64,000 bases of DNA, from NCBI GenBank assembly GCA_916610825.1, contig OU744448.1, positions 4,379,465 to 4,443,464 on the forward strand, given 5' to 3'. Of this stretch, positions 1,142 through 61,300 are shown piece after piece. Positions within the stretch are counted from its first letter, which is position 1. Every line of letters begins with the position of its first letter. The position numbers and the translations under genes are program-made. The notes under the pieces were generated by a model. It was not told the origin of the DNA. It made no database searches and saw only the letters and a list, made by a program, of their open reading frames with translations. This stretch comes from Haliclystus octoradiatus (lineage: Eukaryota; Cnidaria; Staurozoa; Stauromedusae; Haliclystidae).

Positions 1142-2826
1142 ATTTGGTGGTTGATGGTGAAAAAATAGCTTACAGTCTTATCCTAAACATGCCATCATTT
1201 TCAATGCCAAACATCACAATAGTTATTACAAGTTCAACGGGCGATTTTGATTTTGTTACCATTTCAAATGTGATAGTAAAATCAATTGGTGCTGGTCTTG
1301 CGATAAGTGGCCCTCAAAGCTGTGTTTATTCATCTGACAATACTACTTTAGGAAACACTACAGCTAAGTTCCATTTTGGAGCAATCACTGTAAGTTTATT
1401 TTGTAAATTTGAACAATAAACGTAAGCATATTACATTAGAATGTGTAGATTGATTAATCAAGTCAAGAAACTACTTAAAGTCTATAATTCCCCTTTGAAA
1501 ATACAGTTCAGGAGTTCCTGAAATTGGGTCATTTAACGTGCAGGAACTGTTCATCAACTTTTTGTTAAGACGTCTGGTCCTTGACTATGAAGCCGAGTTA
1601 GGGTCAAAATTCGATTCACATGTTGATGATGTGTCTCAAATGGCGACGATGTGTTTCACACTTGACCCTAGTAGAAGCACTACTGATTGGTGTTAGGAAT
1701 GGCATCTGGCGATTAAACTCACACACTCTAAAAATACTAATCAACTAACCAACCAATATGGTGAAAAAAAGCTTCTAGCCTACTGCGGCTTGTGGCTAAA
1801 TGATAATTCGAAAAAAGTTCAGAATTTCAATTTCAAAGCGAGTAGTTTTGAAATTAGCATGTTACTTACAGCAGCTGAAGATCTATTTTGTTAAAACTTG
1901 GTAGTGATCATTGACCAAGTATATATTTCAACATTTGCATAATAATTACTTTTCGTAAAGCTATAGGAAAATATTTATTTCTTCATCTAGAAAAATGGTG
2001 TTTTTCAAAAAATGTATTCACTCAATAATTTATAAACACCTCTGCATTTGAAGTAGGACTTGTATATTCAAACTTATTTTTAAAACTCAGGCCTGAGATT
2101 GTTCCTACGAAAACAACAAACCAATTGTTTTTTATATATATATAACTAATATGGAACCTTAAGAATAATAACGTCATATTAATTGGTCAATAATAGCCAC
2201 AGCTAATACCTATAGTAACATAACAAAAAAATGTAACTTATGTCTTACTGAAAACTACTATATAATTACATCACATTTACCAAATTTACTAAACAAAAGA
2301 TCGGAACTAATTTCGAAATGCCGCTATCAAAATAAATTCTATTTATGTAACTTTAAATGCGTTATCTAATCATAACAATTGTAATAATAAACAACAACCT
2401 TTGTATTAACACAATAGACATATATTGCGTCTATGTATGAATTTATGGGAGTATAGTGGTATGTTTTAATTTTTTAGTAAACCGTCTGATGAACGCAAAG
2501 TAAACGTGTGAAGCTCCGAGTAAAAGAAAAGGCTTTTGCCTCATCGTTGTGTCTATTCTATTCTATACTTACAGAATAATAAAAACAATGTGTTGTAGAA
2601 AGCACAGAGAAGAACATCTCAACTTCCTTTCTGACTGTTATGTAAATGCTCATATATTAAATTTTAATAGGTTTCTGATAATGCTGACACGTCTATCATA
2701 ATGAGTTTCAAAGTAACTGTTCATGATCATCAAATGCTGACTAATGGAACAATACATTACATAGGTGCCGAAGTTGAAGATTCAAACAAAATGGAAGTTG
2801 TTTTATTGCGTAGAACTGTCATGAAG
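1142..2826 (+). CDS. Repeat-unit exon pair 1 of the DUF11-like gene
   Basis: Two exons (1142-1389 and 2671-2826) encode a half-unit starting DLVVDG and ending FHFGAIT, followed by a half-unit with the FKVTV...LTNGTIHY signature. The same two-exon pair recurs at 5369-5613 and 7290-7448 with the same boundaries and phases (the first exon begins after one base of a codon; both end in phase 0). Matching motifs are FSM near residue 20 and LGNT..FHFG at the end. This is direct evidence of duplication of a two-exon module inside the gene. Confidence 0.75.
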
Positions 2827-3081: not shown

Positions 3082-6000
3082 TGACATGCTCACGCCAATT
3101 TATCTAAGTTCTTTGTATTCGATTATTACTTAATTGTTCATTAAATCAGCATCTATAGTCACGTAACTGTAGTGCTGTATTATTGTGTTGCTATCAAGCA
3201 TGAACAATATTCGTCGAAAGTCTCCCATCGTGGAAGTAGGGAAAATACTTAATTGTAGTACAAATACTGAGAAAAACCGTCGTCGTCACCATCGTTATCA
3301 TCGTTGTATTGATTAATACATTCATGTATGACAAAATTAGAAACAAGGTTTTGGTTGTTGTTGTTCACCAGTGATTCATGTTGGTGCCTTTGGTTGTGCC
3401 ATTGTGTCATTTTTTGTGTATTGTCTAAATCCTAAGAGACGCGTATTTCACTTTCCCTACAAGGAGTCTTTATATGACATTTTTACTTTTCTAGTAGAAA
3501 CAAAAAAACAGGTGAAATTTACTGATTGGTTTAATACATCGTAATAAGATCAAACAGCTTTATATAGCCATAATGGGCTTTATCCTTTTTGACACCCTTC
3601 GCCTTGATGGTTTCATGAACTTTCAACTGTCAATCCTGCATTGGTTAATCAAGAAGGCCTCACTGCTTTAGACATGAGTTATCGTAGGGGCTCATAATAT
3701 GCCCACTATACTCTTTAACAATGATCTATCAACATTTGTACACAACAAGCAAAAACATAGAGTGTAACCCGTTGTCAACAATTTCATTGCAGTAATCCAA
3801 CTTTTCCGTTATCCGAAATTGTTTAACAAAGACATGACTACATAATAGTCAATATAGTTTTAAAGCCGGATTGCATAAATGCGGTGAGGCCACTTATCAG
3901 AATTGCACTTATGCGAAAACCACTATAATCAGGGTCCGACAAAAGAAGGCTTCCTGGAATCCTAGATACCTAGAAAGCTAGAGCAAATTCAGAAGAAAAT
4001 CGATATTTGTAGTGATTTGTGTTGTGTAATGTAATTTGTTATATCCAAGCTGTTTTGTCTTGTATATGTGCAGTTGTAATTCTATGTGTAATTGACGTCA
4101 TCATCCGATGTAATTCCTGTAATCTATCTATGTGTAATTTGAAAAATAAATCAGTGCCAGTTTGACCGTCGTTGTAGTCGCTAGTACTCAATGCCGTTTA
4201 TAGCCAAGTCAGCTATACGACAATTTGTATTGGTCAAACATCAACAAAAAGATTCAGAAGAAAATATTGAAATGCCTTTAGGATTCTAGAAGGCTGAACC
4301 TTTTGTCGGACCCTGACTGTAATGATGTTTTTGTCTTTCTATATTTCAGCCAGTGCCCTGTACAAGTATTTTGGTTAGCGCTATACCAGATGTATCAGAG
4401 AAATTTTACTTTGAGCGTGGCGACATGATCAAATTTAAAATCATTGTTTATCATAACTCAACCACAACAGCAACGCGAGTTGATAATTTGGCAATTAGAT
4501 TATCTAGCAAGTATCTCACTCTTAACAGTTCATTAGTGTTGAGTCAAGAAATCCCGACAGCTACCACCACCCTTGATGTGCCAGTGATGAGAGACAATGA
4601 TAGCTATCTGAAGTTAACACCTGGTACATTGGATGTATCAAACACATATACTGCATATGTTAATGCTACTGTTAAAGACTATGTCAATGCTCTTGATCCA
4701 TTATATCTTGATGTTATATACCAAGGAGATGAAATGATTAGTGTTGGAAACTCATTTGTGTGTGGTATTAAACAAACATCTGATCCAATTGTGTATGTCG
4801 AGCATCCAACGTTGAATCTTACGCAGACAATAGAAAAAGGTAATTACCAATCATGTAATGCAATGGCACACTTCACAAATGATGTCATTTTCCAAAAATA
4901 CAATTATGTTAATACATACAGTCAAATGCAAAAAAAGTATGGAAAAACTGTATCAAGTTCGCATAAAAAGAAGCATGTATTCATCATTCTTTGTTCTCAC
5001 ATAATTAAATATAATATATCTTAATCAAACGATAAATAATAAATAATCAATGCGTGCCAATATATTTACAGGGAAACATTTTTTTATTATAGCCATCGAT
5101 ACAATCTGGAGTTCAAACTGATTTCTACAGGCAGGTGGTCTTTATATACAGGTTTTATTCAAAGAATACTATTTGGATCTTGGTAGGATGACCATCATGT
5201 GTGGTGACTACGGGAGGTGTTGCTGTAGAAGTAGGCCTATTGATTGAGTGATAAAATAAGCCAGAGTATTAGCCAGTGTTATTAACCCAATTAAAATATT
5301 TGAGTTTGATAGAGATTGTTTGCTGAAAGTTAGTAAATAATATTATAATATATTTATTAATTAATTAGATTTACTGGTGAATGGTGACCCAATTGATTAT
5401 GATCTTGTTCTCACAATGCCAAAATTTTCAATGAATATTAGTATTGAAATATCAAGTGCGGTTGGATCTTTAAAATTTATGACATTATCAGATGTTGAAG
5501 TCGTAACAGTTGGTAGTGATCTTTCAGTTACAAATACACCGCAACCTATATATTCATCAGTGGATCCTTCTTTGGGAAATACCGCAGCTAATTTCCATTT
5601 TGGTATTGTCACTGTAAGTATGAGATCATACTAATTTACAATCATTATTGATCGTAAGTTTTTTAAATTATTGGCTTATCGAACACTGGCAATAGGGTTA
5701 ACTCGTAAAATAATTAAAACTCAAAATTTTTACCTTAACTTGTTTTACTGAGTACCTTGATTACTTTGCCAAGTTTTTTTGTTGATAAATGGATAAGTAT
5801 TTATTGAGAAATAGTCAAATAAGTATTTGAAAAGATGAGAATTTCAAATCTTGAAGTACAGAGAACAGAAGTTAGCTACATCACACTGTAAAAATCTCTA
5901 TCATAACGAGTGAGCACTTTGTTGGAATATTTATTATTATGAACGAATGCACGATAGATGTTGTGATCTTATCGCTCTCACTCGTCGTGATAGGAATCTT

Positions 6001-15000: not shown

Positions 15001-17644
15001 GCTTCGGACAGGGATTGAACCCGAGACCCTGCGGGCCGTGGTCCAACACCCTAGCCACTACACCAAGGCCGCACTTACTTGTTGTGATGCTATGCTAATG
15101 ATGAATGGTGTATTGGTTGCTGTTGTTTGATGCTGGTCAATTGTTCTTGTTGATTGCTGCTCCATGCGAAAAACAGTTCAGGAGTTCATGAACAGTTCAT
15201 GAACATTAAATGGCCCCAATTTTCATGAATAGTTCATGAACCTCAATCGAAAGTTCATAAACAGTTCAAAAAAATGTATAGCCATTGAACCTTCATGAAC
15301 TTTTCATGAACTCCTAACCTGTTTTTCGCAGAGATGCTGATATTTTTCAACTTGCTGGTTCAGATATTTTAGCGTTTGTGTTGTTGTTGTTGCTATGCTT
15401 TGCCAATGATAATGACCATGCCGCAATCATCGGTGTTGTTATTGTTGCTCTGCTATGCTACTGTTTTGAGATCATGCCGCTATCATTGTTGTTGTTGTTG
15501 TTGTTGTTGATGTTGTGTGCTATGCTACTGCTTTTGAGTCATGCCGCTATCATGGGTGATGTTTTCGTTGTTGCTATGCTATGCTAATGATGATGTGGGC
15601 TGCTGTTGTTTAGTACCGGTCAAACGTGGAACATTTTTGTTGCATCCTCCCATTTAAAGTTATGGTAAGTATGATTAGGAATTCCACTGACGTCTTAGCA
15701 GTGTGACTGTAGCTTAGTTGATGATTTCAGGTCTGCATTTGCTCTGTCAGCCTTTATACTTATTCCGCCTGCCGCCCACCACCTGCCACGAAACAAACAC
15801 CTATGCCAAAACATTGTTGTAATATTAAGGTGAATGGTTTAACCTGTGTTTACAGCCAAAAATAGTTTGAGAATGTTATCTATCCTTAGCATGATCGAGA
15901 TGTTTGTATGAATTTATATTGTGACCATAGAATATTTGATTTTCATTAATCTTTTTACAGAATACTATGAGTTTGGGATTGCCATTAATTATGGAACTAC
16001 ACCCGACACAATATATTCTTGCTTGGGCCAAAAGAAAGCAATGTAAGTTGAGAAACATACTTCATTACTACTACATTTCATTTGCTCCATTGTAAACTTT
16101 AGGAAGGCATGAAATGATATTAACAAAACACAGTTTTCATCTATTTCCTTCAAATGTATGATGCAGTACTAGCAATTCCTACCTGCTCCGCTGTTATGTG
16201 TCTCTATAATAGATTTCTTCATGGTATAACATCCTAAATGTGAAAACCCAGTGATTTCCTTCTTAACTTGAATAAATCTTTAGGCATTGGAGCAACACAA
16301 ATTCAAATTATTGCATCCGTTTTGCAGTACAGCCTACCTTTGTATCCCTTTGATTGAATGATTTACCTGGGTAAAACTGAACCAAAGTTACAGTAATTTT
16401 CCCTTAACAGGGGGCACCCCTGCTAAAAAACTTGGTTGAGCTTTCGATTTCTACTGAAAAGGGGATGTATTGTTTATAGTTTAATCTGTCTATTTTCCTA
16501 CAGCAAACCCTCTTGTCATTCCGACTGTCGTTCTGAGTTTAAAAAAATGAATGATAGAAAATAGCATAGTTTCAACATTAAACATCTCCGCTTAAATGCG
16601 CCCAAATTGAAATAGAATTTTCGCCATTCTTCGTCATTTAACTTGATTTATCTGTCAAATGTGTTAAAATTTGTTGATGTCATGTGAAACTCAGAGTAAC
16701 GGAATAAACTCGTGATCTTTGATACTATTTATATATATCTAATAGCAAAAAATAGTGCTCAATATCATTTGACAGAGCTAAATATAATAAAAGGAGTCAA
16801 AGACTACACATTCATAATTGTATTAATAATAATTCACTTAATAATAATAATAATAATTCATTTATAATTCACAAATATGAATGTGTAGTCTTTGACTCCT
16901 TTTATTATATATATATAGAGTATAAAACAGAGACGAGGCAAAGCCTTTTCCGTAACTCGGAGTTTCACGCTTTTATTGTGATCTTCAGACGGTGATACTA
17001 AAAAATTAAAAACATACGATTACTCCTAAACATACACACATGAGTGCGATATCCAGCTATTGTTTATCTACAATGGGTTACTGATAAATTAATATTTTTA
17101 TTGTTTGTTTACAAAGGCATATTGTTGTAAATTTCTTAATGTCTACGATTTACTGGATTTACCGGATTTTTACAACAATATGCCTTTGTAAACAAACAAT
17201 AAAAATATTAATTTATCAGTAACCCATTGTAGATAACCAATAGCTAGATATCGCACTCATGTATGTATGTTTAGGATTAATCGTTTGTTTTTAATTTTTT
17301 AGTATCACCGTCTGAAGATCGCAATAAAAGCGTGAAACTCCGAGTTACGGAAAAGGCTTTGCCTCGTCTCTGTTTTATACTCTATATTATGCTCTGTTCT
17401 AAAAAACATTGAGCACTTTCATATACATGTGTGTATAAGAGTTCACACTCAATACAATTATTTTTTTTAATTAATTATTATTATATTATATATCAGTTTT
17501 AACTAAAAAACTGTCAGTTTTAACTGTCTGAGTTTTAACTTTAAGTAACAGTATCAAAATGTGTAGTCTTTGACTTCTTTATTATATTTACAGCTCTGTC
17601 AACTGACATTGAGCACTGTTTTACTGCTATTAGATAATATCTAA

Positions 17645-17679
<35 letters not shown>

Positions 17680-20600
17680 GTTTCAAATTTAATAAAAATT
17701 TAAAAGTATTGGCAGGTGAACAGTGCTCAATGCTTGTAAATAGCAGAGCGGTAAATAATAATAGAGTCAAGAAAGACACACCATTTTTGCTGTTACTTGA
17801 AGTTTCACGTTGTTACACGTTCACATTTTATGTATGTATGTTTTTAATTGTATTCTGTCTGATGATCTTTTAACAACGTGAAACTTCAAGTAACAGCAAA
17901 AATGGTGTGTCTTTCTTGACTCTATTATTATATATATATATATATATATGCACTTTTATAAATTGAATATGTCATGCTAATCAGTCCAGAATGTTATACA
18001 TGAGTGAATAATTCTAGACTATTTTCAATAATGATCTTATAAGTAAGGTATCCTGAATCAACATTCTCCTTGAAATCTGTATGTACTAGCTATGGTATGT
18101 TTTAGAACCTTCATTTGATATATTTTACAGAATTCACCAGTCTTTTCACTATTGTAATTTCAATTATTTGAGAAATCTTGCCCCTCTTTCAGGTTTCACT
18201 TTTCTGATATGATATACAACAGATTCAATGTTAAACAATTCTGGTATATCTGTTAATTCTAGACTTGGCGCTGACGGTGGATGTTATTCTACAACTGATG
18301 GAGGGGTCATATGGTCAAGTAAGTTTCCTATTATCATTATTATCATCATTACTTTTTGTGTTTGGATTAGGCAGTCACTCGCAAACAGGGTAAGCATACA
18401 GCTGTTTTCATCACAGAGGCTGGTTAATATTATTTTTGAATTGTGTATGCATTACATGATTGTTTTTCCTCCCTGATGACAAGACAATTAACAATTATCG
18501 AATGAGAGTGAGCACGACACTGAGAATTATCAGGCCGAGGCGGATAACACGCGCCGAGGCCTAATAATTCTCAGTGTCATGTGAAATCGAGTTTGATAAT
18601 TGTTTTATTATTAATCCATACCTTGATTAATCCCATGAAATAGTCAAGAACAACTGCGTTTTGGGAAATATTACGAATTCATCGCAACAGGTTTGTTTAA
18701 ATATGTCTTCATAATTTAGAGACTTTAACGCTATCAACTTGATTAGATGAAAACTTCTTTGCATTTCGTTGTCCTCTTTCTAATTATTCGCATTTTTTTT
18801 TATAATAAACTTGACAATTCTGGCTTCTGTATTGTAGTAAATCTTTATTTTGAAAAGTCGAAAATTTGTAAAAAAAAGAGTTTTTCTATCACGTCAGTCT
18901 TGAAACCTTGGAGATGCTATTGTCTCAACATATTGTCGCGACCTAATTGTCTCGAGCTCTACCCTATTGTCTCAGATTATTACGTCACGTTCGAAGACAC
19001 TAGGAATTGTCGATGTTTGATTAACCAATAGGAAGCAAGAAAACGTTCGAAAAACTTGCCATTAATAATAATGGTGCTTGTGTAAGGGTTTGAACACAAT
19101 AACCCGCAGGTAAAGGCCCAGAGCCCTAACCACTATACAAATGCATTATCGCTGTCATCACTGATATCAGCTGATTAATTTCAAATTTTAAAAATTGTTG
19201 ATGTTATTCGTTCAAAGTTTTCCACTATCCGGAAAAGTAAAGTATAAGCATATTGATCGAACAGCATGTGATTCTAACGTTATGTAATTTATATAATTTA
19301 TTCTATTGGAATCTACTAATCACATATGGACTTATAAATACTTATTTACATATCATGTGACCTGTCAATCATAGCCACTATATTAGCTTATATCCCCATT
19401 CATTTATTAGTAGTTATCAGAGATGTTATCACAGTAGTATCATAGATATATCAAGAAATCAAGAAGAAGTTAATAAATCACATATTCACATTATTATATT
19501 GGTCTTTATTGATTTGTTATATATATTTTTTTTGGATTTATCATTTATCCACAAACCGGGTAAGCTTGCAGCTTTTTCTCACCGGGGTGGTTGGTTAAAT
19601 TGGTTAGTATTTTGAAGATTGTGTGCGTTTATAGCCGGATGCCCTTCCTGACGCCAACCTATAGTGCTCCGGCCAGGGATTGAACCCGAGACCCTGCGGG
19701 CCGTGGTCCAACGCTCTGACCACTACACCAAGGCCGCACTATCGTAACGAACACAAAATTCACTTCTGCACTTTGTTACATGATTACTTATTAAAATATT
19801 TTTTTGTATTTCAAACTCTCGTTACATACAGGGTAACCCCTGCAATTAAAATCTATGACTTCATGAACAGTTCATGAACATTTTTTTGTGGGTTCAAGAA
19901 CGTGAAATTGCCCAAATTTCCATGAACAGTTCATGAACTTTGGGAGACTTCACGTTCAAGAACTCATGAACTTTTTTGCACAGGAATGTAAAATGTTGTT
20001 ATCTTACGGCCCTTCGAAACACAGTTCATGATTTTATGAACTTTTTATGGCAATTCATTAACTATAGTAGTTAAGCTTCGAAAAACATTTTAGTACGAAA
20101 GATATCGCCAAAATATCACTATTTAATTTTGTTCTGACGTTTCGAAATCGCTGTTGTCATTATCAAGGTTGAAGGAAATATTTTATGAAATTACAAGTTT
20201 GATATAGGTAAAATGTGCTAAGATATAAATTTAACATTCTATGGCTATTGTTTACAAACAGAGAATAACATTATAACAAATTTTATCGTGATTTTTTGTC
20301 ACTGATTCTTTCATACAAAAAACATTCATTAACTGTTCTCAAAACCTCATGAATAAGCATTAACAGTTCATCAATAGTTCATGAATAGTTCATGAACTTA
20401 TGAACTGTTTTTCGCAGGATGGGGGTTTGTTCCAGCAGTGTAGACTAAGTTAAAAGGAAAATTGATAATGTTGCGGTTGACATACAATTAGCTTGAACAA
20501 CAAAATTTAACATTAAAAGTTCAAATATTATAGGATTTTAGAGAGGTTTAATCTTTTTGTCAAATCCTGATTATCTTTTATGTATATTTTGTTTTCTTAA

Positions 20601-29646: not shown

Positions 29647-32600
29647 GTAAGTTGTTTTGCATGTTCGGGATTTAACTGGTAGCACTGGTACTGTGCTATT
29701 TAGTGCACAGGTAGCTCAGTGGCAGAGTGTCAGTATTTAATGCGGGAGGCTTAGGATTCGATTCCTCGTCTGTGCACACATGTTTGTATTTGTCTGTAAA
29801 TGTGTTTATGTCCCCCAAATAAACAAGCACTTCTGCTGACGGGTTGACTATGACTATCAGTTATCATGTAGTTAACTGAAATCGAAATGTTGTTGACTCA
29901 TGGTTACGTAAGTGACATTGAGTCTATCCTGTCATGGTGGAAACGTTTTCATTTCATTTTTGACTAAATCTATTGTTTTTTTGAAATAACGTTCAACATA
30001 CTGCTTTGCGTGCTAACAAAGGTCGAACAAAAAACGATTGTTATCATGTAGTTAACTGAAATCGAAATGTTATTATTGTTTACACATCGACCTTGTTTTA
30101 TTCACAATATGAATGTTGTCCTCTAAGATAAAAATAGATTTGGGAAAATGTTATGACTAACTTATTTCCACTTAAAAAGTATTGTCATGTTTACGTTGTC
30201 GCTTTCATAACATGTGCTGACTTTCAAATATTAACTTGTTTTGATATAGTTCAATAGTAACATGAATGTATTTGACATTCCTTTGACAATAAAATTTTTC
30301 AATATAATGTGTAGCAATGTAGTGGTTTGTATTTAAAAATCACACACATTTAAAAAAAATGTTGATAAGCTGTCAATTGATATTGATGTCTCAAGTTCAC
30401 ACGACAAGGTCAACAATGGCGACATCTTTAAATCTTCATAAGTTAATCATTGCGCGGAATTCAAGTTTGATGTTTGAATTATTAGGTAGAAAAACAATGT
30501 TCTTTAATTCAGACATAAATAATGACAAAAAGCGTCATTTAAACATTTTATTTTGACTTACGAACATAAAGATCAAGATTTAGAAAATGTACCTTGATCA
30601 TCAACAAATGACAATAGCAACAACATTACAATTGTGTTCATATACAAACTTGACATAATTTGTCTTGAAGAATTGCTTTTACAAAACAAATCATTGGCGT
30701 CAGGCATACATAAGCCTATAGTCACAGATCAAACGAGCTACTCAATAAGCATGAACTCCTCATTCCTAAGCTATTTCCATTTAGCGGCGCGTTGAAGCAA
30801 GGAAAGAACGGTATAATCCTGAACTGAATTGATGACTAATGTAAGGTCCTTGGCAGTATGAACTGACATGATTATGCTGTTACATGTCCTGAATTCAGCA
30901 CTAAGAGAGATCAGCTGTCTACAAGAGCCATTTAACAGGAGAACTTGCAACGCTATGCAAAGTTCTTGTTTAACCTCAGTAAAATTTCATATTACTACAA
31001 CAAATTATTCTAGATAATGGATCGAGATTTGAAAAAGAAATTAGCATTTCAGAAGCAACGATCAGAACAGCAGGGTCCTCTACAAGAAGAGGATACCAGA
31101 AAAGAGGTATGTGATATGTACATTCAAACACGTTTCCTTTGTTTTATAATAATAATAATAATGATGCTTCATTTACGTAGCACTATTTTATTTTAGAAAT
31201 CCAATAAAAATACTGATTCAGCCTTCATATATCAGTGCACACATTCACTGCTCAGACTAGCGAAAAAGTTGTTTGATAAGGCATGGGTTGTATTATGAGG
31301 CATTCAATCTGAGGCATACCATGTACACCTCTTCACATTTTTTTGCAATCCAGTCTATTGATAATTCTTATGACACATTCTAATTCCCTCATTAGAAAAA
31401 GCTTTGGAAAAGCTATTTTATTTCAACCTCCTTTTTAATTGTTATTTTATTTATTTAATGAACTTCAATCCATTATTATAATAATTATATTTCAACATGC
31501 TGGACAATTATTTAAACAGAGAGACATGGAAAGGATTTACTTCCATGTGGTAATAGAATAACAATTGTATTGCCATGACAACTGATAATCACGATGTGCT
31601 GTCATGACAACAATGATCTGATTTGGTGCGATAGCCAAGGTCTGACAATAGCGGGGATCCTGGGATCCTAGAACTCGGAAAGTTGAAGCAAATTCAGAAG
31701 AAAATTGATAATTTTCAGGCCAAACCTCAACAAAAAATTCAGGAGAAAATGTTGAACATTTTTAAGATTCCAGAAGGCTAAATCTTTTGTTGGACACTGG
31801 TGATGCTGCACACAAATCACTTCAGGTGTGCATGTTATAGCACCTGTGTCTTTTTTATAATGCAAACCATGCAATAAGGTGATCTCTATAAAATGTCAAC
31901 ATCGTATTATCATCAAGGTATATATAGATTGACTACTGTATGCAGGTTGCCTTTGTTTAGGCCTACAGGGTTAATTCAATAGAAAATACTAAGTTAGACA
32001 TTGTAAAAGTGACCGTTATAGACAAATATGATTGTTAACACAGGTTTGACCGTATTCTATTGTTGTGTTGTTAGAAACCAAAGAGAGAAAATGACATATC
32101 AGCAGATATGGCACTCTTTGAAAGCGTACTAGTTGTTTCCTTGAAAGAAGGTAAAGTGTAGCCTAAACGTAATATTTATTACCAATTTCACAATTTTGAA
32201 TGTGTTTTCAATTTTTTGCTGTGTAGGCTATATATTAATTAGTCAACGTAGTCATACAATTGTTTAATTAATAGCAATTTTGCAGATTGTGATTCTTTAT
32301 GCTAAAATTTGATCAGATTTCAAACTTCACTTGTTTGAAGCTCTGGTTGATGGATTAATTTTGGCTGAATTTAAAACTGCATTTGACGCTGTCAAAACAA
32401 ACGTATAATTAATATTGGTATTTTCTACAGTCATGCTTTGCCACTGATTGGTAATTGCGCAGAATGAAATTGGAGAACATGTGAATTTTAATATCAAACA
32501 ATAGGAACGTGATGTAATGAAGCATTTCATAAGCAGGGTCCGACAAAAGGTTCAGGCTTCAGGAAACCTAGATGTATTTCAACATTTTCTTACAATTTTT

Positions 32601-39266: not shown

Positions 39267-42200
39267 TTATTGAGAAGCCTTTAAGCCGTTTGGCTTTTTT
39301 TCAAAGGGCTCATACATATTAAAATTAAAATAGTTACAAACATAATTACAATATAGACAAAAACAATGGATTAGTGAATGATTAATCTTTACATGCTAGA
39401 TTTGATTTACATAATTTTTGGAAAAGCCTACTATCAGTGATATCCTTTATCGAGTTTGGCAGATCATTCCATTTGCGAGCACCAGCTGACTGAAAAGAGT
39501 GACTATGACTTGGTTGAATGTAAATATTATTGTTTGTATGGGAATAAAAACATGATATTATATCCCTTGTTTCTTTAGAGTGGTACACATGGCATGGATA
39601 CTTTGACATTGGAGCGTCCTGGTGATTCAGCAATTCATGCTCATGTAAGATCAATACCATTTTTATTTAACCTGACTACCCCTAGCCCTATGTACCCCTG
39701 TCCATGGAAGCATAGTTGTCAAATATTTTACCCAACATTGGACCATTTTTATATGATATGTTACGAGTCTAGAAGCAATCAGTATCTAATAACTTATCTA
39801 ATTAGAAACAATCAGGAACCAATCCTATTGAAAAAATCATGAAAAATGTGCATCAGAACTTAAGTCCCTTTTGTCAAAGTTGAGTTGGTCATATTAAAAC
39901 GCAAACTAATAAATTCCGTTTCAACCGATTCTCAATATTCTATTTTGATCTGATACATTTGCACATTTGCTACAAATATACCGAGTTATTTTTAGATGCC
40001 ATAAAAGAGATAAAAAAATTATTGTAAGAATTCTTATTCAAACAAAAATGATTACCATCATGTGCAGTTTCAGAGTTGAATAACTTTTTTATTTCTTTAT
40101 CATTTCTAAAATTCGGCATCTTGTGATTTTCTGATGCCTTCTTGTTTTCTCCTGACGTGCCCTCTCATGAGGCCATCATAAGCTATAACTGATACGTTTA
40201 AATATCGTAATTGATCTAGCAGATACTACACATTCAGGCAAAGAATTCCACACGGGAATTGCTCTGAAAAAGAATGAGTTTTTTATAACATTATTTACAG
40301 CAATTGCTTCAGGAGCTAGTTTGTATGAATGGCCTCTAGTGGCATATATTTTAGAGTGATTTTTGAATGGTGTTGTAGGTCCAATATCAACAAGTTTATG
40401 AATAATTTTGTAAACCATATATAAATCAGATTTCAAGCGACGGAGTTCAAGTGGTTGCATATTTAATAGATTTAGACGCTCTTTATAGGAAAAACTTTTT
40501 TTTTGGCAATTGTTTATAATATAGCGAGTACATTTTCTCTGGACTTTTTCTAAAACGTTAATATCTTTCATCAAATACGGACTCCACACGCTACAATCAG
40601 TTTCTAAAATTGGACGGACATAAATTAAGTAAGCACTAAGAAGTAAATCAATAGAACGAGATCTGAAACATTTAAAGATGAGGAATAAACGTGAATTTGC
40701 TTTAGCAGCTAAAGCTGCACAATGTTTTGAAAACTTCAAATCCGAAGAAATGACAATGCCAAGATCACGTATTGTATCCAATTCTTGAAGAATGTGTGTT
40801 GATAGTTCATAAGTACATTTAGATATGTTTTTGATATTGCCGAAAGAGATTACATTGCATTTTTCAAAAGCAATGCGCAATTGCCAAATGTCAGCCCAAG
40901 ATTGTAAGTTCTGTAAAGTTATGTGTAAGTCATTGTTGTCTATATTGGTGTCTTTGATATAGCGAGCAAGGGAAAACTTTGCATCATCTGCAAATAACTT
41001 AACGTCACAAATTCCTTCGAGACAGGAGCCGCTATCATTAATAAATAAACGATTTCTTCCCAAGAGATCAACCACAACGCAGCTTCTACTTGCATTAAAT
41101 CAATGGTACCATGATATAAATGACCATGCTCGCATCGATGCGGTATATATTGATCTCAGTAAAGCATTCGATACTGTTTCCAATCCTAAGCTTATTTCTA
41201 AACTAAAGGCATATGGTGTTCGTCATGAACTATTAGATTGGATTAATGCTTTCCTGACACAAAGATTACAACAAGTATCTGTTGCGAATAAGTTATCAAG
41301 TTTGTTACCAGTTACCAGTGGCGTTCCCCAGGGATCTGTTCTTGGCCCTTTGCTTTTTCTTTTATTTATTAACGATATCGGCTCCTGTCTCGAAGGAATT
41401 TGTGACGTTAAGTTATTTGCAGATGATGCAAAGTTTTCCCTTGCTCGTTATATCAAAGAAACCAATATAGTTAACAATGACTTACACACAACTTTACAGA
41501 ACTTATATTCTTGGGCTGACATTTGGCAATTGCGCAATGCTTTTGAAAAATGCAATGTAATCTCTTTCGGCAATATCAAAAACATATCTAAATGTACTTA
41601 TGAACTATCAACACACATTCTTCAAGAATTGGATACAATACGTGATCTTGGCATTGTCATTTCTTCGGATTTGAAGTTTTCAAAACATTGTGCAGCTTTA
41701 GCTGCTAAAGCAAATTCACGTTTATTCCTTATCTTTCAATGTTTCAGATCTCGTTCTATTGATTTACTTCTTCGTGCTTACTTAATTTATGTCCGTCCAA
41801 TTTTAGAAACTTATTGTAGCGTGTGGAGTCCGTATTTGATGAAAGATATTAACATTTTAGAAAAAGTCCAGAGAAAATTTACTCGCTATATTATAAACAA
41901 TTGCCAAAAAAAAAGTTTTTCCTATAAAGAGCGTCTAAATCTATTAAATATGAAAACACTTGAACTCCGTCGCTTGAAATCTGATTTATATATGGTTTAC
42001 AAAATTATTCATAAACTTGTTGATATTGGACCTACAACACCATTCAAAAATCACTCTAAAATATATGCCACTAGAGGCCATTCACACAAACTAGCTCCTG
42101 AAGCAATTGCTGTAAATAATGTTATAAAAAACTCATTCTTTTTCAGAGCAATTCCCGTGTGGAATTCTTTGCCTGAATGTGTAGTATCTGCTAGATCAAT

Positions 42201-45200
42201 TACAATATTTAAACGTAGTTTAGAAAAAGTTAATTTGGAAAATTTTTGTAAATATACTTAGGCTGCTTATAAGTGAAAGTACTATAAACTTTCCTTTGTT
42301 TGCCTTTCAAAATAATTGTGATAATTAACTATTACTTTTTATTTTTTGAAAAATATATCAAATATCAAATAGTAACATATGAACCAATTACTTAATAACA
42401 ATGTTAATTTTTTGAAAATTTAGGTTGATTTGAAAATACTATTTGATACGCTACCAGTATCTACGGTACGTACGCTATATAATGACAATGAAACCTTTAT
42501 ATTATTGCCTTTATATAATGTTTTGTAAGTTGTCTTACTGATTGAACATAGGGCTCAATGCTATACAGAAGAGCTTTACATAATATATATTATTTCATAT
42601 TTTATATATTATAGTGAAATGAAACCGCTCCGCTGGGTAAAATTTGAAAATAAAAAAATAGAAAATTGAATTGCTAGAGTTTAGCCCAAGTGATAAATAA
42701 ACAATAGAACTGGTGGTCAGTGGGGTGTGAAAGATATTGCATGATGAATATGAGAATGTACTTCGTTCTTTCTATGGAGCCGCAAGAGAAATCCTACGAA
42801 AAAAATACGCTTTTGACCGTCAATTGAAGGAATATAAAGATATGAACATAAAACATGGCCTATGCTGCCGCAAAAAATTATAAGATACCCTACGGATTGT
42901 ATGGATTTGATACGTTTACCATGAGAAGCGTGAATCTCGAATACAGTAGATACAAACAGACATACATCAATGTTTATATTTTTTATATTATTACAGCCTT
43001 TATATATTATTTCTTATTCGTTCTACTGTAAAGAGAACGAGCTAATATACACACACAACCAGCTATAAGAGTTAGACAAATTGATTACTATAGACAGTTG
43101 GCCTTTGAATACAGGGTTAATGTAACAATAGAAAATACAAATTTAGACTACCAAGAGCACAGATTATAACGACCAGATACGGCACTGAACGTTCGAAATT
43201 GTGATTGGTCAAATAACGGCCATCATGTTTGTTGCCCATTTTTTGACGCATTTCATCATAGTCCATTACGATTTTAGGGAACTATCGACAAAATAATACT
43301 TGAAATAATTCACTTTTGAAGCTGAATTCAGCCTTCTCAAGCTACTCAATGAGAGTGGATGGATGGTACGCTGTATGTAAAATTCAAAATCATAATTTTG
43401 ATATTAGCAAATTTATTTTAAATGCTATAAATTCAAAAGCCTAAAAAGTCTACGGTTGAAATGAAGAAAGTACGACAATATTTATAGTTTATCACATAAA
43501 TTTCATTGCAAACTGTAGAATAATATGCACTGATGCTTGGTGATATGGAATAACGCAATCACAGTCAAAGAATAGGCTATTTGGAGTGGATTATTAAGGA
43601 AATCACTGCTTACGTTTTTCCATTATTTTCGATCGAATACGATCACTCGCACTCCAAAACCACGGCATTTCAAACTCGGAAAATTTGTGTAAAGAGCCAC
43701 ATACATTCGATAAATTAATGAAATCATAATATGAAATATTATTTGCAATGTAACTGTAAATTTTATTCATCAAAATCTACTTGTATTCATAATTTATAGC
43801 CAGTTTTTCTCTTCAGTAAAATCAATGATTTTGTTCAACTTTCATAAGTCAATAAAATATTGTCTTCCAGTACACAGTATACCATTATCAAGCGACCATC
43901 TCAAAATAGATGATATACTTTCCTGTTATTTTCCTTTAGTACACATTTATCGTGTTTTTCCATTGCGATTTTTCAATGAACAATTGAATTCGAAAAACAA
44001 TGAATTCGACTTTCAGTGCCGTATCTGGTCGTTATAATCTGTGACCAAGAGTGACCACTATAAACAGGTGACCACTATATGCAGGTGACCTTTATATGCA
44101 AAGTTGATTCGATAGAAAATACAAATTTAGACTACCAAGAGTGACCGCTATAGACAGATGACCACTATATGCAGGTGACCCTTATAACGGGTTGACAGTA
44201 CTTCAAATTATTTTTCAATTGATCAAGTGAAAATCTCTATGATTTTTGTTTTTCTTCAGATTTTATCAATTATTACGAGTTTGCTGATGGAAAAACGAAT
44301 CATACTAAGTTCATCATCATTGAGGTATTAACTGTTGTTTTTGATGGTCTTCGTGTCTATTTATTAATTAGAGTATTTCCTAGTAGCTTAGAGTAGTTTG
44401 AATGCATGACAGTTATGATAATTTGGATTATCCATAGACTTACATACGTAGACTGGCTATCCCATTGCATATAAGTGACGTATTACGTCCGAAGATCGCA
44501 ATTAAACGCGTGAAACTCTGAGTAACGGAAAAAATGCTTTTGCCTCATCTTTGTTCCTTATTCTATAATGCTCTGTTTTACCCAACATTGAACACTTTCA
44601 TATTCATATCTGAGTTTACACTCGATATAATACATTTTTTAATTTATTATTCTACATTTTTATTTATACAGCAATGTTTGGGCTACTTTATTAAAATTTA
44701 ACCTGATCATCAAAAGATAATAAATGTGTTTACAGAACGATGCTGCTTCATCGAATTACTTGATATTAGTTTAACGCATTTTTAATTCTTATGTCTTATT
44801 TTAGTACTCTGTCTGCATGTTGTCATGGTTTCATTTCACTCTTATACCCTTTCGTTTGGCAGGTATTTATGTTGTCATTCATTCGTTAAATCATATATCA
44901 CTCATTTGATCTTCTTAACATTGATAATAATACTACATGGTTTTAATATACTGACGTTAACCAATAGTCTGAACCTCAGAATCAAAGCTGATTTAGTAGC
45001 CCCTTTGTATTTGGGCACTTCAGAAGTGGAAGTTATTTTTTAAACTAGCAGTACCCTGATTTTTCCTGTCATGCGTTATTGGCAGAATATATATATTTGT
45101 ATATCTATCTAAGCAGCCTCATTGTCAAGAAATTTCAATGAAATGCTCATACAAAATTTACCAAAGACTCAGATAAAGAGTTCCAGGTTCGCCGGAAAGG

Positions 45201-48200
45201 TAAAAGTAGCCACAAGCTAGGCTACTTTGCAAAATATATCAGACATGAGAATTTTCAGACTTTTAGCGGATTTCAGACTATTTTGGGCCTTGTGAAACTC
45301 TAGTTATTGCTTTTCCCCATTCAATTCCATTGAGATTTATCAAGATATTGTAGATTTCAGACTATTTTTGAAATTGCAATTCTCATGTCTGATATATACA
45401 CAATACCAAGGATCAAAGTGCTCCTACATAGGCGTTACTGCGTTGAAAATGCCACACTTGCCCTTTGCATGTTGAGGGAAAGTAGTGATGTGTATAGAAT
45501 ATATAAACCTACGTTAATTTTATTCTCGCTTTGCCTCTCCCAGGCTCTAAAATGCAGAAGTTTGCAATGGAGCAATATAATCTACCGCATTTGAAAACCT
45601 ATATTTTTACAGTTTATGATTTTCCTACTGCCTATTTAATGGCAGTAGAAGCTCTTGATAGCTTGCTGAGTGCTCTGTCTAGTCTCGGAAAAACGTCCAG
45701 AATCCAATGATCTCCAATTATGTGCATAACTTGAGGGCTTAAGTAACACTGAAACTCATTTATTGGTTTTCAAACGACGTAGACTTCATTCTTTTTTATC
45801 AATCTTTATGTTTTTATATTTCTAAGCATACATACATCCCTGTATTGCCTCGTAAATTGATCGATATCTGCTGTAGTCCAACTCCATATCTTCTTGGTGT
45901 TTTGAATGTATGTTTACCAGAACTTGAAGATTTACCCATGTCAGAGGTATGTTTGTTCAGACGTCTGTCTAACTTCTTATACAATCCAGCCTGTTATAAC
46001 AGCCACCTCTATAGAGCAGTAACCTGTCTATGATGGCCATACTAATGATGCTATATCTTCTGCTAGATAAACCCTGTATATAACAGCCTCCTTGATAACA
46101 ATTTATCTTTATCTAATGGCTGGCTATCTTTATCTAATAGCTCACTGTACATATTTTTCAAATAAAAAATTTGAAATTGTTTTGGCGTTCTTTGTGTAGC
46201 AAATATGTTAGACGAAAGAGGGACGGCACATTTCTATAAGGTGACTGTCTGTCTATTATACTGCAAATACTTCTAATACTTACTGAAGTTTCCCTCCAAA
46301 ATCAATAATATATGCAATAATTTCCTATACCAATAATTACGTATTGTTTACTGGCATCAATAACTTCTTGCACATTTTAGTATTAAGACCAATTGTATTT
46401 ATTTTCTAAACATATATTTCTAATGCCGACTAACATATGTCAAACGTCAATTCATATTTCACTGTATTTTAACCATAAAAAAGTTATCGGTATCATTTGT
46501 TTATTGATCTGAAAATACAAATTCCTCGATTTTATAAAGGAATAAAAATGACAATACCACTATGAAATGTAGTACATGAATGGAATTATCGATGGCATTT
46601 TTGTTCTCTATAGGTCACTGTTGTAAATTTGGATGACGGGAAGTTCATTGAACAGGTTAGTGCAATAAGATCACATTTAAAGGTAAATACTATCAAGAAA
46701 TTGCAGACATGAGAATTTTCAGACTTTTAGCGGATTTCAGATTATTTTGGACCTTGTGAAACACTAGTTATTGCTTTTTTCCATTGAAATCGATTAATAT
46801 TGATCAAAATATCCTAAATTTCAAACTATTTTCTAAATTTGAATTCTCATGTCTGAAATTGGCGCACAGTTTACTATAGGCTATTGATATTTGGCGCACA
46901 AGATGCACAAAGGAGAAAATAAAAAGGCATCAGAATATCACAAGCTGCAGCAGCGAGGGATTTTTGCCTTAAATTTTCCCTTGAAATGACTCAAGTGCAT
47001 CGAAATCAATTCCCCATAGGAAACTGTGTGCCAATTGCTTAGTACAAAGTTATAACTTACACAACTTTTATAAACATTTACATGATTTTTTTGTGTGTTT
47101 GAAATCTCCTGATTAAATTGGAAATTCTCATTCGTGATGTCTGACAAGCTCGAATTGAAAGATTGATTTTGTTTTCAAACCTAATTTTGCTATTGTGAGT
47201 TGCTGTCATAACTCTAAACCAATCAGATTGATCAGATCAATTTTGTGATAATTCACCTCTGTATAGCAGCCACCTGTCTATAATGATCAATTTAGTAATA
47301 TACAGAAATCATTGTTCTATACAACAACTCTGTATATAAAGATCATCTGTTTTGTTCTGTTTGATGGCTGGTTTTACTGATTTATTGTATGCATCAGTTA
47401 GTTGTCAGATAATTGTCATACAGCCAACCCTGTTATAACGGTCGCCTCTATACAGCAGCCATCTGTCTATAGTGGTCACTCTTCCAATGTCTAAATAGCA
47501 TTCTCTATTGAATCAAACCTGTATATTAAGGCCACCTGTTTATAGTGGTCAATTTATCTACCTCTCGTAGCTGGCCGTTATATACAGGTTTCACTGTAAT
47601 ACGTTTGATTTGGCTTTTCGACATTGTAATTTTAATGAAAGCATATGAGTCTCTGTAAGCAAGGTTAACAAAAGCTAGCACCAATTGATTTAAGAGCTTC
47701 ATACCCATGTCCATTTAATTGCGTAGCAGCTACATTCTGTACAGCAACCAATACGAATGAATTATAAGGAATATCTTTGTTAATAATCTGCCATGTCGTC
47801 ACTTGCTGTTGTTTTATTATTTGTATCAAATGCTTTGGAATCTGTGACAACATGTGCTGTAGCATCGACCATCACAATATTGAAGCCTCGTTTCTTCTGA
47901 GAATGTTCAACGCTATATACAAGAATTGAAGCTTTCTCACACTTGTTCCCTTTAGGAGATACAACTTTTACTGGATCTTCACACCCTTCAGATATGATAG
48001 ATACAAACGCTGAAAATAAATAAGATACAAAATATGATATCAGATCATTCTTCATTAGTAAATCCAGATGGTTTTCAATATAAAAGTGTAAATTTCACGC
48101 GCTCTATTTAATATAATAATACTTAACTTTATCCATTTTTAGGGTGACTCATACAACTATTTTCCAAAATCAATTCGTGATGAAATGGATAAAACTCTGG

Positions 48201-58316: not shown

Positions 58317-58351
<35 letters not shown>

Positions 58352-61300
58352 AATAATAATATATGGCGAAAGAGTCAAAGAATACACATTCTTTACTGTT
58401 ACTCAAGTTTCACGCTTTTCACAGCGATCTTCAGACAGATTTTTTACTCAATGAAAAATATACATGATATCTACGTTCTATGGTCAACTCTCCGTAATGC
58501 TGCTTTTTATTGTTTAATTAATACAATGCTATTGTTATTGCTATTGTTAATACAAGTGGTGGAAAAATGTGATGGTTTCCTTTATTCTCAGTAAATGATT
58601 ATTTATTATGTTTTTGATTTATTAAAATTGGACAGGTAATATTTATTTTCGTGACGACATTTAGATATTAATTCAGTTTTTTTGTTTATTATTGGTTCTT
58701 CTGCTCATATAATATGATATTTTTCTAAGAGGCATAAATGGCATTTTTTCGAGATGTTGTTGTATGCTTTTGCATTAGCGATGGCTGACCATTCGATTTT
58801 GTATGTGATGTTTTTGTCTTTTAAATCCCAAACGTGTTTGGATAGTTGTGTGCTAGTGTTGTATTTTCTGTGTTTAAGTGTTGCCTTGTGTTGCGTGTAG
58901 CGTTGTTTGAACGTGCCTACAGAGCAGAGAAGGACAGAGCTACATTGGGTTGACGGAAGGCACGTTCAAACAACGCTACACGCAACACAAGGCAACACTT
59001 AAACACAGAAAATACAACACTAGCACACAACTATCCAAACACGTTTGGGATTTAAAAGACAAAAACATCACATACAAAATCGAATGGTCAGCCATCGCTA
59101 ATGCAAAAGCATACAACAACATCTCGAAAAAATGCCATTTATGCCTCTTAGAAAAATATCATATTATATGCGCAGAAGAACCAATAATAAACAAAAAAAC
59201 TGAATTAATATCTAAATGTCGTCACGAAAATAAATATTACCTGTCCAATTTTAATAAATCAAAAACATAATAAATAATCATTTACTGAGAATAAAGGAAA
59301 CCATCACATTTTTCCACCACTTGTATTAACAATAGCAATAACAATAGCATTGTATTAATTAAACAATAAAAAGCAGCATTACGGAGAGTTGACCATAGAA
59401 CGTAGATATCATGTATATTTTTCATTGAGTAAAAAATCTGTCTGAAGATCGCTGTGAAAAGCGTGAAACTTGAGTAACAGTAAAGAATGTGTATTCTTTG
59501 ACTCTTTCGCCATATATTATTATTATTTACCGCTCTGTCAAATGAAGACATAGAGCCCTATATTATCTGCTATTAGATAAACATAAATTTTATTATTATT
59601 ATTATTATTATTATAGTTACTAATAATAAATATTATCCAATAGCAGTAAAACAGTGCTCAATGTCTGTCGACAGAGCTGTAAATATAAGTATAAATAGAG
59701 GAGTCAAAGACTACACATTTTGTTACTGTACAGTAACAAAATGTGTAGTCTTTGACTCCTCTATTTATATTTATATTATAGTTATTATAATTATTATTAA
59801 CATAGTACAAATACTCTAGTTAACATACCTCTTGATCAAATAACTCTTCAATGTGTAGTGGTTTTATAACGTCAGTAATAAATTGTGGATGGATATAGGC
59901 ATCACGGATCTTTGCATGAAGCAACATGCGAACATTGCCTTTAGATTTGGGACTGATCTTTTGAGGTTTGTAGCTAACATTCATCTGTGGGATGTCGGCT
60001 GAAGAAATAAATTCAAAAAAGTTATGGCATTTTTAAATTCAATCTTCCATTGAAAGATGATTACTTAATGCAAAGGGAGACAATCTGAGGAAGCATCTTT
60101 GAAATTTAGTATGAATCTACATTGCATTGAGAATTGAAAAACTTCCGCCCAAGTTCCAATTTAGTCATTTCAAACCCTGACGCCACATTTAATGTACTTT
60201 AACATTGCTTTGCTTCTAGAAGACTAAAAAGTTCAGTGAAAACAGTGCATTAATATCCTGTTAATACACTGTAGGCAATTAGGTATGCCATTCAAAAACA
60301 AATTATGATAATAGAGAATTAGCTATGTATTAAACTACTATTTGAATAAAATTGTGATTTATCTTAATATATTTCTATTAAACCCTTTATCTCAAATCCT
60401 TAACATCACAATAATTTGGACTAGGTGCTTGGTTGGTGGGAGGTTGGCAGCAAAACACAATAGCTAGTTGACTAATAGCAGACCTGACACCACCAACCAA
60501 GCTCCAGTCACACTGCTAAGTCAGTGGAATTCCTAGGTATACTTACCTTTGTCAACCAACAAGGGATGGGAAGGGAGGTGGAAAAGTAAATAATAAACAG
60601 CGTAAAATATCAGCAGCAAATAAATTAACCACATCAACAAATAACAATAGTAACAGCATTAAAATTGTGTCAATATACAAACTAGACATCATTTGTTGAG
60701 ATGAATGGCTTTGACATAACAGATCATAGGATAAATACAGTCAGAGATCAAACAAACCACTCGACAAGCATAAACTCCTCATTAACTTTCCTAAACCATT
60801 CAGCGGCGCGTTGAAGCAACAAAGGAACGATATAGTCCCGAACTGCACTGATAAGTGGCTTAATCTAGGGTCCTAGGAAGTAGGAACTAACAGGGTCATG
60901 CTGTTACATGTGCTCAATTCAGCAGAAAGGCAGATTGCTTGTCTACAAGTAGACTTTGTGCCAGTTAACAAGAGAGCTAAGCAGCGGGATTCAAAGATAG
61001 TGTTTACCCTCAGTAAAATTTCATTTAACTACAATAATCTCTAATTTCTGTATTTCCCTATAGAATTCAAAACAAAGATGAGAAAAACGCCTTCACTCGA
61101 AGGGTTGAAATTCTCTGTGAAAAAATCCACTACTTCATGAACAGTCACAAATAGTTCATGAACATTTTATGAACCCGTTTACGTCACTGTTTTGAATTTC
61201 AACGCATGAACGTGAAATTGCCTGAAAGTTATGAACAGTTCCGGGCAATTTAACTTTTATGAACTCAGTAACTTTTTTTCACAGGGGAAAATTTGCTAAA

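Follow-up and report, generated by a model that had tools for sequence, protein, structure and literature searches.

Minimal hammerhead motifs in a Penelope-like element of Haliclystus octoradiatus, and short palindromes whose arms often end at the predicted cut

A stretch of 64,000 nucleotides (nt) from the genome of the staurozoan cnidarian Haliclystus octoradiatus (assembly GCA_916610825.1, contig OU744448.1, positions 4,379,465 to 4,443,464; hereafter, the window) holds palindromic repeats whose arms carry hammerhead-like sequences. What are these motifs, and why do they stand in palindromes? We put at roughly seven in ten the chance that they represent minimal hammerhead ribozymes of type I, carried by the pseudo-long terminal repeats (pLTRs) of a Penelope-like element (PLE), that the RNA they cut serves as a template, and that the foldbacks arise by copying on two strands. 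Minimal dimeric hammerheads are already known from PLEs, as is a U.U opposition at the base of stem II; what appears to go beyond the known is that the arms of short palindromes often end at the predicted cut.

Hammerhead motifs in a Penelope-like element

The window is AT-rich (33% GC), and its coding stretches are broken up. Ten places in it carry hammerhead sequence (Table 1): five near-intact motifs of three types, one with a changed core, which is probably dead (44485–44528), and four decayed copies. The near-intact motifs have the type I core, CUGANGA ... GAAA, and a cleavage triplet ending in H. The original prediction had placed motifs on both arms of two palindromes, and we find them on both arms of foldbacks A and C; the other places, among them a third palindrome (B) whose core survives on a single arm, were no part of it. 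The right arm of A (17308–17350, plus strand) reads CCGT-CTGAAGA-T-CGC..GCG-T-GAAACTCCGAGTT-ACGG, and both arms of C carry the identical CTGT-CTGAAGA-T-CGC..GCG-T-GAAACTTGAGTA-ACAG, so that the predicted stem I difference (CCGT/ACGG in one palindrome, CTGT/ACAG in the other), the constant core, the ACT/AGT stem III with its variable loop and the U-U opposition at the base of stem II are all there. A pattern for the motif, CTGANGATCN{6,30}CGTGAAACT, matches the window five times (0.00 expected), a looser one, CTGANGAN{6,30}GAAAC, matches the same five places (0.64 expected), and a full structural descriptor finds three, the right arm of A and both arms of C, where 100 order-2 Markov controls average 0.04.

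Genome-wide searches covered 262 Mb in 33 contigs, the window being part of contig C4. The strict motif occurs at 3834 places (1750 and 2084 on the two strands), and complete hammerheads with stem I CUGU/ACAG and stem II left free at 2524; the control was 0 in each case, a reversed pattern for the strict motif, which excludes chance. The first 100 or so matches of each search are listed, all on contig C1. Among the matches listed, stem I occurs as CUGU/ACAG, CCGU/ACGG, UUGC/GCAA, UUGU/ACAA and others, and stem II as CGC/GCG, UGC/GCA, CGUU/AACG, CACC/GGUG and others.

The three helices surround the core and are open at helix I, and compensatory changes back stems I and II. We scored 36 distinct hammerheads, all from outside the window and with nothing left out for a weak stem II, and 73 distinct copies selected without any pairing condition. 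Among the 36, the proposed structure pairs 86.8% of cells (77.3% in shuffles, at most 50.0% when it is slid along the alignment), 57 cells are changed on both sides (17.9 shuffled, 0–10 slid), the covariation score is 0.340 against 0.159, and nine of the 13 named pairs show change on both sides, a number reached by 6 of 500 shuffles. Among the 73, stem I pairs 1, 3 and 4 form in 72, 63 and 64 copies (59.2, 58.2 and 50.1 in shuffles), which bears out the compensatory change first proposed for that stem. In stem II, pairs 2 and 4 form in 66 and 67 copies, also above shuffles; for each of these five pairs, no more than 15 of 2000 shuffles reach the count. All four stem I pairs are present in 53 of these 73 unfiltered copies.

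We also built a covariance model of the type I structure from 27 distinct hammerheads, again all from outside the window and part of the 36 (most of the other nine have a weak stem II). It matches all ten places in the window, six at E-values from 3e-15 to 1e-11 and four more weakly, the weakest at 0.27. Together with the covariation of stems I and II, this supports the predicted hammerhead fold. Counts made on the 27 sequences were redone with all 36 and without a pairing filter, and the outcome was the same, though somewhat weaker.

Two features proposed as marks of a new subfamily, A at position N7 and a mismatched stem II, do not hold up as such. With these positions left free, N7 is T in 32, A in 10 and G in 1 of 43 distinct complete hammerheads among the matches listed, and in the same 43, positions 10.1/11.1 are U.U in 31, U-A in 7, U.C in 2, and C.U, A-U and G-C in one each, nine being Watson–Crick pairs. 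U.U is common, yet no fixed mark, and it has already been published for the axolotl hammerhead HHR_Amex2 (PMC7229834). The 43 give the unbiased figures for 10.1/11.1, since the strict-motif pattern forced U at both positions and a further set of 75 distinct hammerheads, like the set of 73, derives largely from it. Those 75 are what remains of 78 sequences after three with an odd helix III or overlapping matches were dropped; the set was partly built on a selection that kept 53 of 97 distinct matches by their stem I and II pairing, which favours pairing. H17 in the 75 is A in 48, T in 24 and C in 3, the pattern having excluded G.

Helix III is too short for a monomer and self-complementary for a dimer, as in the minimal dimeric hammerheads of PLEs. 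Of the 20 unique 9-nt helix III segments in the 75-hammerhead set, 18 have complementary bases at positions 4 and 6; all four unique 8-nt segments have them at positions 4 and 5, a result that by itself does not stand out from shuffles (312 of 2000). Among the 73 copies chosen without a pairing filter, the inner positions are complementary in 16 of 20 unique segments (10.2 shuffled; 2 of 2000 reach it). A monomer cannot use these inner pairs, because its loop would be 1 or 0 nt long; two copies can. Duplex energies for six segments run from -3.4 to -7.8 kcal/mol, with no control set. The inner complementarity fits dimer action of PLE hammerheads, the published view going by a title cited in PMC7761336.

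Judged by its architecture (PMC3846280, PMC11167929), the element is a PLE. In foldback C, the C-type hammerhead lies 3' of the end of an open reading frame (ORF) whose product resembles a GIY-YIG endonuclease. This protein end is found at at least 150 places in the genome (2831 candidates), with open frames of up to 743 and often 721 amino acids (aa); ends of the 721-aa frames are 97–98% identical, which points to recent activity. Neighbouring protein ends lie 2516 or 2519 nt apart, and there are inverted blocks, such as - - - + + on contig C10 (both among the matches listed). In the one tandem unit that we read through, hammerhead cores 2519 nt apart flank a 712-aa ORF whose ATG lies 174 nt after the cut. 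Such head-to-tail tandems form pLTRs with a hammerhead in each, and both hammerheads are present in this unit. Inverted pLTRs with a short one-sided tail, on AT-rich or simple-repeat targets, are found among the C-type loci, of which 17 of 24 were examined for this. The 712-aa ORF has the residues FDIENFYPSI and LYRDDG, which we take to be reverse transcriptase-like, and IIYKANV and SYIGLT, presumably GIY-YIG-like. Tandem units, an ORF with this ending and inverted pLTRs support the Penelope-type assignment made at the outset. No relatives of the ORF were found in viral contigs, and the predicted fold of a 119-aa endonuclease fragment is unusable (mean confidence, pLDDT, 36). Metazoan retrozymes, which are small non-coding tandem repeats of about 170–400 nt with canonical type I hammerheads, are ruled out by the unit of 2516–2519 nt with its ORF.

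Ends of short palindromes and the predicted cut

Among the strict-motif matches listed, hammerheads often come as divergent pairs. We searched for short palindromes consisting of two leaders that face away from each other, and successive patterns found 36, 10, 21 (with longer centres), 5 and 24, where reversed-pattern controls found 0. The scored set comprises 76 distinct palindromes: duplicates were merged (one of the 36, six of the 24), and 13 of the 21 with longer centres, for which only 80 letters were shown, were left out.

The arms end at the predicted cut far more often than a uniform spread would give. Within -6 to +8 of it lie 114 of the 152 arm ends, and 39 fall exactly at 0 (7.6 expected; binomial 4e-18); over all 152 ends, from -10 to +17, the expectation is 5.4. 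The next commonest ends in the narrower range are at -1 (12), -3 (10), -2 and +1 (nine each). At least one arm ends at the cut in 33 palindromes, and both do in six. In each of the seven leader types, the cut is the commonest or tied-commonest end within that range: 6 of 12 in T1, 10 of 39 in T2, 2 of 10 in T3 (tied), 3 of 5 in T4, 5 of 17 in T5, 10 of 24 in C and 3 of 7 in A. The commonest C palindrome occurs at seven loci with different outer flanks and was scored once. The leader-only palindrome of the window (59682–59777) was scored +1/+1 and stands outside the 39, because in that type H17 is U, the same letter as the complement of the base that starts the product, which makes 0 and +1 indistinguishable.

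Only one of 42 arms that reach the cut has GUH just upstream, so these palindromes are not hammerheads of another type. Despite the AT-rich genome, the base just upstream of the 42 arms is most often C (20), then G (11), T (6) and A (5), perhaps through untemplated addition at run-off. We rejected an origin by deletion between direct repeats in larger palindromes, which predicts CTGT beside CTGANGA on one side; none was seen by eye in the minimal palindromes. A search by title and abstract start of the open-licence PMC literature returned no report of PLE insertions ending at a hammerhead cut, though such ends may have been described before.

The outer ends differ between the two arms. Tails were scored in 17 of the 24 C-type palindromes, taken with their flanks, by whether GCTCTGTC occurs at most 70 nt behind the leader anchor. 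Exactly one arm continues past the first UUAUUA run in 15 of the 17, neither in two and both in none; were the arms independent, one-sidedness of this degree or more would have a probability of 0.001. Rotifer PLEs likewise have a 'tail' on only one of their inverted pLTRs, as reported in 2013 (PMC3846280). Such a tail is consistent with copying that starts internally, at UUAUUA runs, on targets that are AT-rich or (TAA)n, and the asymmetry suggests that the two strands are primed differently.

Foldbacks and neighbouring features of the window

Coordinates are collected in Table 1. The arms of foldback A align to the PLE 3' end at 2398–2579, and the decayed copy at 2217–2579 ties A to the element, since it matches C at the endonuclease end and A in the hammerhead region. 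The long left arm of the palindrome at 59603–59777, starting near 59603, is our reading of a self-alignment of 59477–59729.

Table 1. Hammerhead copies, foldbacks and element fragments in the window (bits and E-values from our covariance model)
Feature	Position	Strand	Remarks
Hammerhead motif, foldback A right arm	17308..17350	+	Predicted cut 17346/17347 (GUU^ACGG); 58.7 bits, E 2.7e-15
Hammerhead motif, foldback A left arm	16950..16992	-	One stem II pair broken (CAC for CGC); predicted cut 16954/16953; 50.0 bits
Hammerhead motif, foldback C right arm	59438..59480	+	Predicted cut 59476/59477 (GUA^ACAG); 58.6 bits; fold z -2.18
Hammerhead motif, foldback C left arm	58396..58438	-	Identical to right-arm copy; predicted cut 58400/58399; 58.6 bits
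Hammerhead motif, foldback B right arm only	17855..17896	+	N7=T; one stem II pair broken; predicted cut 17892/17893; 51.1 bits
Hammerhead copy with U4 to C in core (CCGAAGA)	44485..44528	+	Broken pairs in stems I and II; 47.0 bits
Decayed hammerhead, foldback B left arm	17790..17826	-	CUGA core lost; 28.3 bits
Decayed hammerhead 3' of PLE endonuclease fragment	2482..2526	+	26.3 bits
Decayed hammerhead, mainly 3' half	16671..16702	+	15.6 bits, E 0.035; direct repeat shared with other copies
Decayed hammerhead, stem II deleted	17524..17551	+	12.7 bits, E 0.27 (weak alone); leader behind matches other copies
Foldback A: inverted 219-nt arms, PLE 3' end (3' untranslated region (UTR), hammerhead, leader)	16913..17387	.	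Arms 16913–17131 / 17169–17387, 97% complementary
Foldback B: inverted 72-nt arms	17752..17934	.	94% complementary; inverted-repeat search
Foldback C: head-to-head pair of 5'-truncated PLE 3' ends (endonuclease end, 3'UTR, hammerhead, leader)	58349..59527	.	97.8% to own complement
C-terminal 119-aa PLE ORF fragment (GIY-YIG-like endonuclease end)	58911..59270	+	Residues 5–119 98% identical to end of 721-aa open frames elsewhere in genome
Decayed PLE endonuclease fragment, then 3'UTR, hammerhead, leader	2217..2337	+	Self-alignment of window
Leader-only head-to-head palindrome	59603..59777	.	Arms 59682–59729 / 59730–59777, 98%; centre 59729/59730 (CTGT|ACAG) at predicted cleavage position
Leader-only palindrome without hammerhead	16779..16913	.	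Arms 16779–16821 / 16871–16913; 49-nt AT-rich centre

Another element with paired inverted copies is present: a reverse transcriptase of the long interspersed nuclear element type (40963–42261) forms, over 40193–42217, a head-to-head inverted repeat with 860-nt arms that are 98% complementary. A tRNA-like sequence at 29705–29776 scores above its Rfam gathering score (35.4 bits) and is not called by ARAGORN; it is possibly the head of a short interspersed nuclear element or a decayed tRNA gene. A 104-aa open frame at 48094–47783 has a sub-threshold match to the ILEI domain (E 1e-4, 23.1 bits, cut-off 27). Rfam matches to microRNAs (e.g., MIR4208, 79.6 bits, gathering score 140) were dropped as the usual product of long inverted repeats.

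Proposed copying from a cut template

The simplest account of these observations would be two-strand target-primed reverse transcription on hammerhead-cut RNA. With units of about 2.5 kb following one another head to tail, a transcript of such a tandem would contain one hammerhead per unit. Cleavage would follow GUH, probably by a dimer of two copies joined through the self-complementary helix III and perhaps with help from a protein, and the stem I 3' strand (ACAG, ACGG, ACAA or GCAA) would form the start of the cut RNA. The element protein would then nick both strands of DNA targets that are AT-rich or (TAA)n, and copying of the RNA would start inside the leader, at UUAUUA runs. Where the template had been cut just upstream, the enzyme would run off at the cut and leave a complementary DNA (cDNA) of some 50–130 nt, and two such cDNAs, one per strand, might be joined head to head into a small palindrome centred on the cleavage site. 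Where it was uncut, copying may pass through the hammerhead, the 3'UTR and the ORF, giving larger foldbacks, such as A and C, with a hammerhead in each arm.

That arms often end at the predicted cut points, indirectly, to a ribozyme that is active in the living animal. We consider it probable, with a little less assurance than for the reading given at the outset, that PLE hammerheads cut in vivo, that reverse transcription uses the cut RNA as its template, that head-to-head foldbacks are two-strand target-primed products often ending at the cut, and that the ribozyme both fixes the 5' end of new copies and leaves leader-only palindromes behind as waste.

Minimal type I hammerheads of PLEs were reportedly described by Cervera and de la Pena in 2014 and by Lunse, Weinberg and Breaker in 2017. 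Theirs and ours are alike in being type I with helix III very short or missing, in their position in pLTRs and in their thousands of copies, with dimer action reported or proposed; ours differ in being mostly U.U at 10.1/11.1 and in that helix III complementarity and cut-site footprints are measured within one genome. Axolotl HHR_Amex2 also combines U.U at the base of helix II with a short helix III (two pairs and a tetraloop), and it works much better as a dimer, an action that ours would share; it belongs to non-coding tandem retrozymes (a 353-nt repeat was tested) rather than to a coding PLE (PMC7229834). In PAc, a PLE of Anolis (PMC11167929), an ORF with reverse transcriptase and GIY-YIG domains, which ours appears to share, lies at or close behind the hammerhead, with pLTRs and tandem units; in vitro, both strands of AT-rich targets are cut and extended, and reverse transcription starts internally. 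The PAc ORF begins at stem II, whereas here the cut lies 174 nt before the ATG (one copy), and in PAc the first 172 nt of the ORF are required in the template, whose copying starts in an AC-rich stem loop, whereas our arms end at UUAUUA runs in the leader. Rotifer Penelope elements share the head-to-head inverted pLTRs, the junction palindromes and the short tail on one pLTR; that study proposed antisense self-priming, and the word hammerhead is absent from that text (PMC3846280), whereas here junctions often fall at a predicted ribozyme cut.

Several results weigh against a working hammerhead and a cut template. At gathering scores, none of the 4227 Rfam families gives a hammerhead in the whole window, the only match being the tRNA-like one at 29705; four short window stretches give none at E-values up to 10, and the window motifs do not reach the gathering score of RF00163. 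A whole-genome search with the Rfam hammerhead returned 0 matches, and it gave none in control genomes either, so this is no proof of absence. The covariance-model check attached to the original prediction is therefore divided: its Rfam part yields no match above threshold, our model from copies outside the window yields strong ones, and the lack of a match holds to the letter for Rfam and not in substance. Minimum-energy folding recovers no hammerhead, and the A and B motifs (B folded one nt short, 17855–17895) do no better than shuffles (z +0.72, +0.27, +1.02); only the C motif stands apart (z -2.18). In the covariation, the 21 further pair types in the 36 hammerheads are unremarkable (19.5 in shuffles, 129 of 500 of which have as many), and pair 3 of stem II forms no more often than by chance (63 of 73; 62.2 shuffled). 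There is hardly any variation in pair 2 of stem I or in the outer pairs of helix III, and the latter say little. As to the palindromes, 75 of the 114 near-site arm ends and 43 of the 76 palindromes are off the cut, the range of -6 to +8 was chosen after the ends had been seen, and of the 38 ends outside it, 32 lie at -10 to -7, beside the search anchor; simple non-inverted (TAA)n junctions (12 rows, about 10 places) include two possibly at the cut, ambiguous by 1–2 nt. The 712-aa ORF matches nothing in Pfam at E-values up to 10 and nothing in the PDB, so that the protein family is our own reading of motifs and architecture. Finally, mutants of the PAc hammerhead still insert in vitro, the hammerhead did not cut without protein and RNA sequencing showed no ends at the site (PMC11167929).

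The lack of cleavage by the PAc hammerhead without protein, the weak monomer folds and the decay of some window copies would all be expected if the ribozymes were fossils, in which activity was ancestral, covariation is inherited with each subfamily, and present copies are dead or depend on a protein. We regard this as unlikely, although it is the alternative that survives best: the strict motif is kept at 3834 places, the C-type copies include 721-aa open frames with ends 97–98% identical, and the same C type bears cut-site footprints.

Self-priming on antisense RNA, as proposed for the rotifer head-to-head palindromes (PMC3846280), could make palindromes with no part played by the hammerhead, their ends at the cut being a coincidence or the end of a transcript. 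A sense ribozyme cannot cut antisense RNA, yet ends peak at its cut in seven leader types (once as a tie) that differ in sequence there (ACAG, ACAA, ACGG, GCAA), which self-priming does not predict; many junctions, moreover, are asymmetric or contain filler, unlike snap-back products. We think this origin quite improbable.

The ends might instead record RNA structure, if reverse transcriptase halted at a folded, uncut ribozyme, whose stem I would sit at this very place. An enzyme arriving from the 3' side, however, would be expected to stop some 4 nt short of the cut, on meeting the 3' strand of stem I; ends there number 7 at -4 and 4 at -5 against 39 at 0, and we judge this explanation very unlikely. 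That chance or simple repeats should have produced hammerhead-like letters in AT-rich inverted repeats, as the short core and the want of an Rfam match could suggest, is refuted by the Markov controls (0.04 descriptor matches per sequence), the reversed pattern (0 against 3834) and the drop in pairing and covariation once the structure is slid, and has a negligible claim.

If copying from a hammerhead-cut template is indeed how these palindromes arise, then the cut of PLE hammerheads decides where the template for reverse transcription has its 5' end, a point that was called a mystery in 2020. The rotifer study of 2013 did not decide between sense and antisense RNA as the origin of head-to-head palindromes (PMC3846280). 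Junctions at the cut are relevant to both questions, and they can be counted in any PLE-rich genome without experiment.

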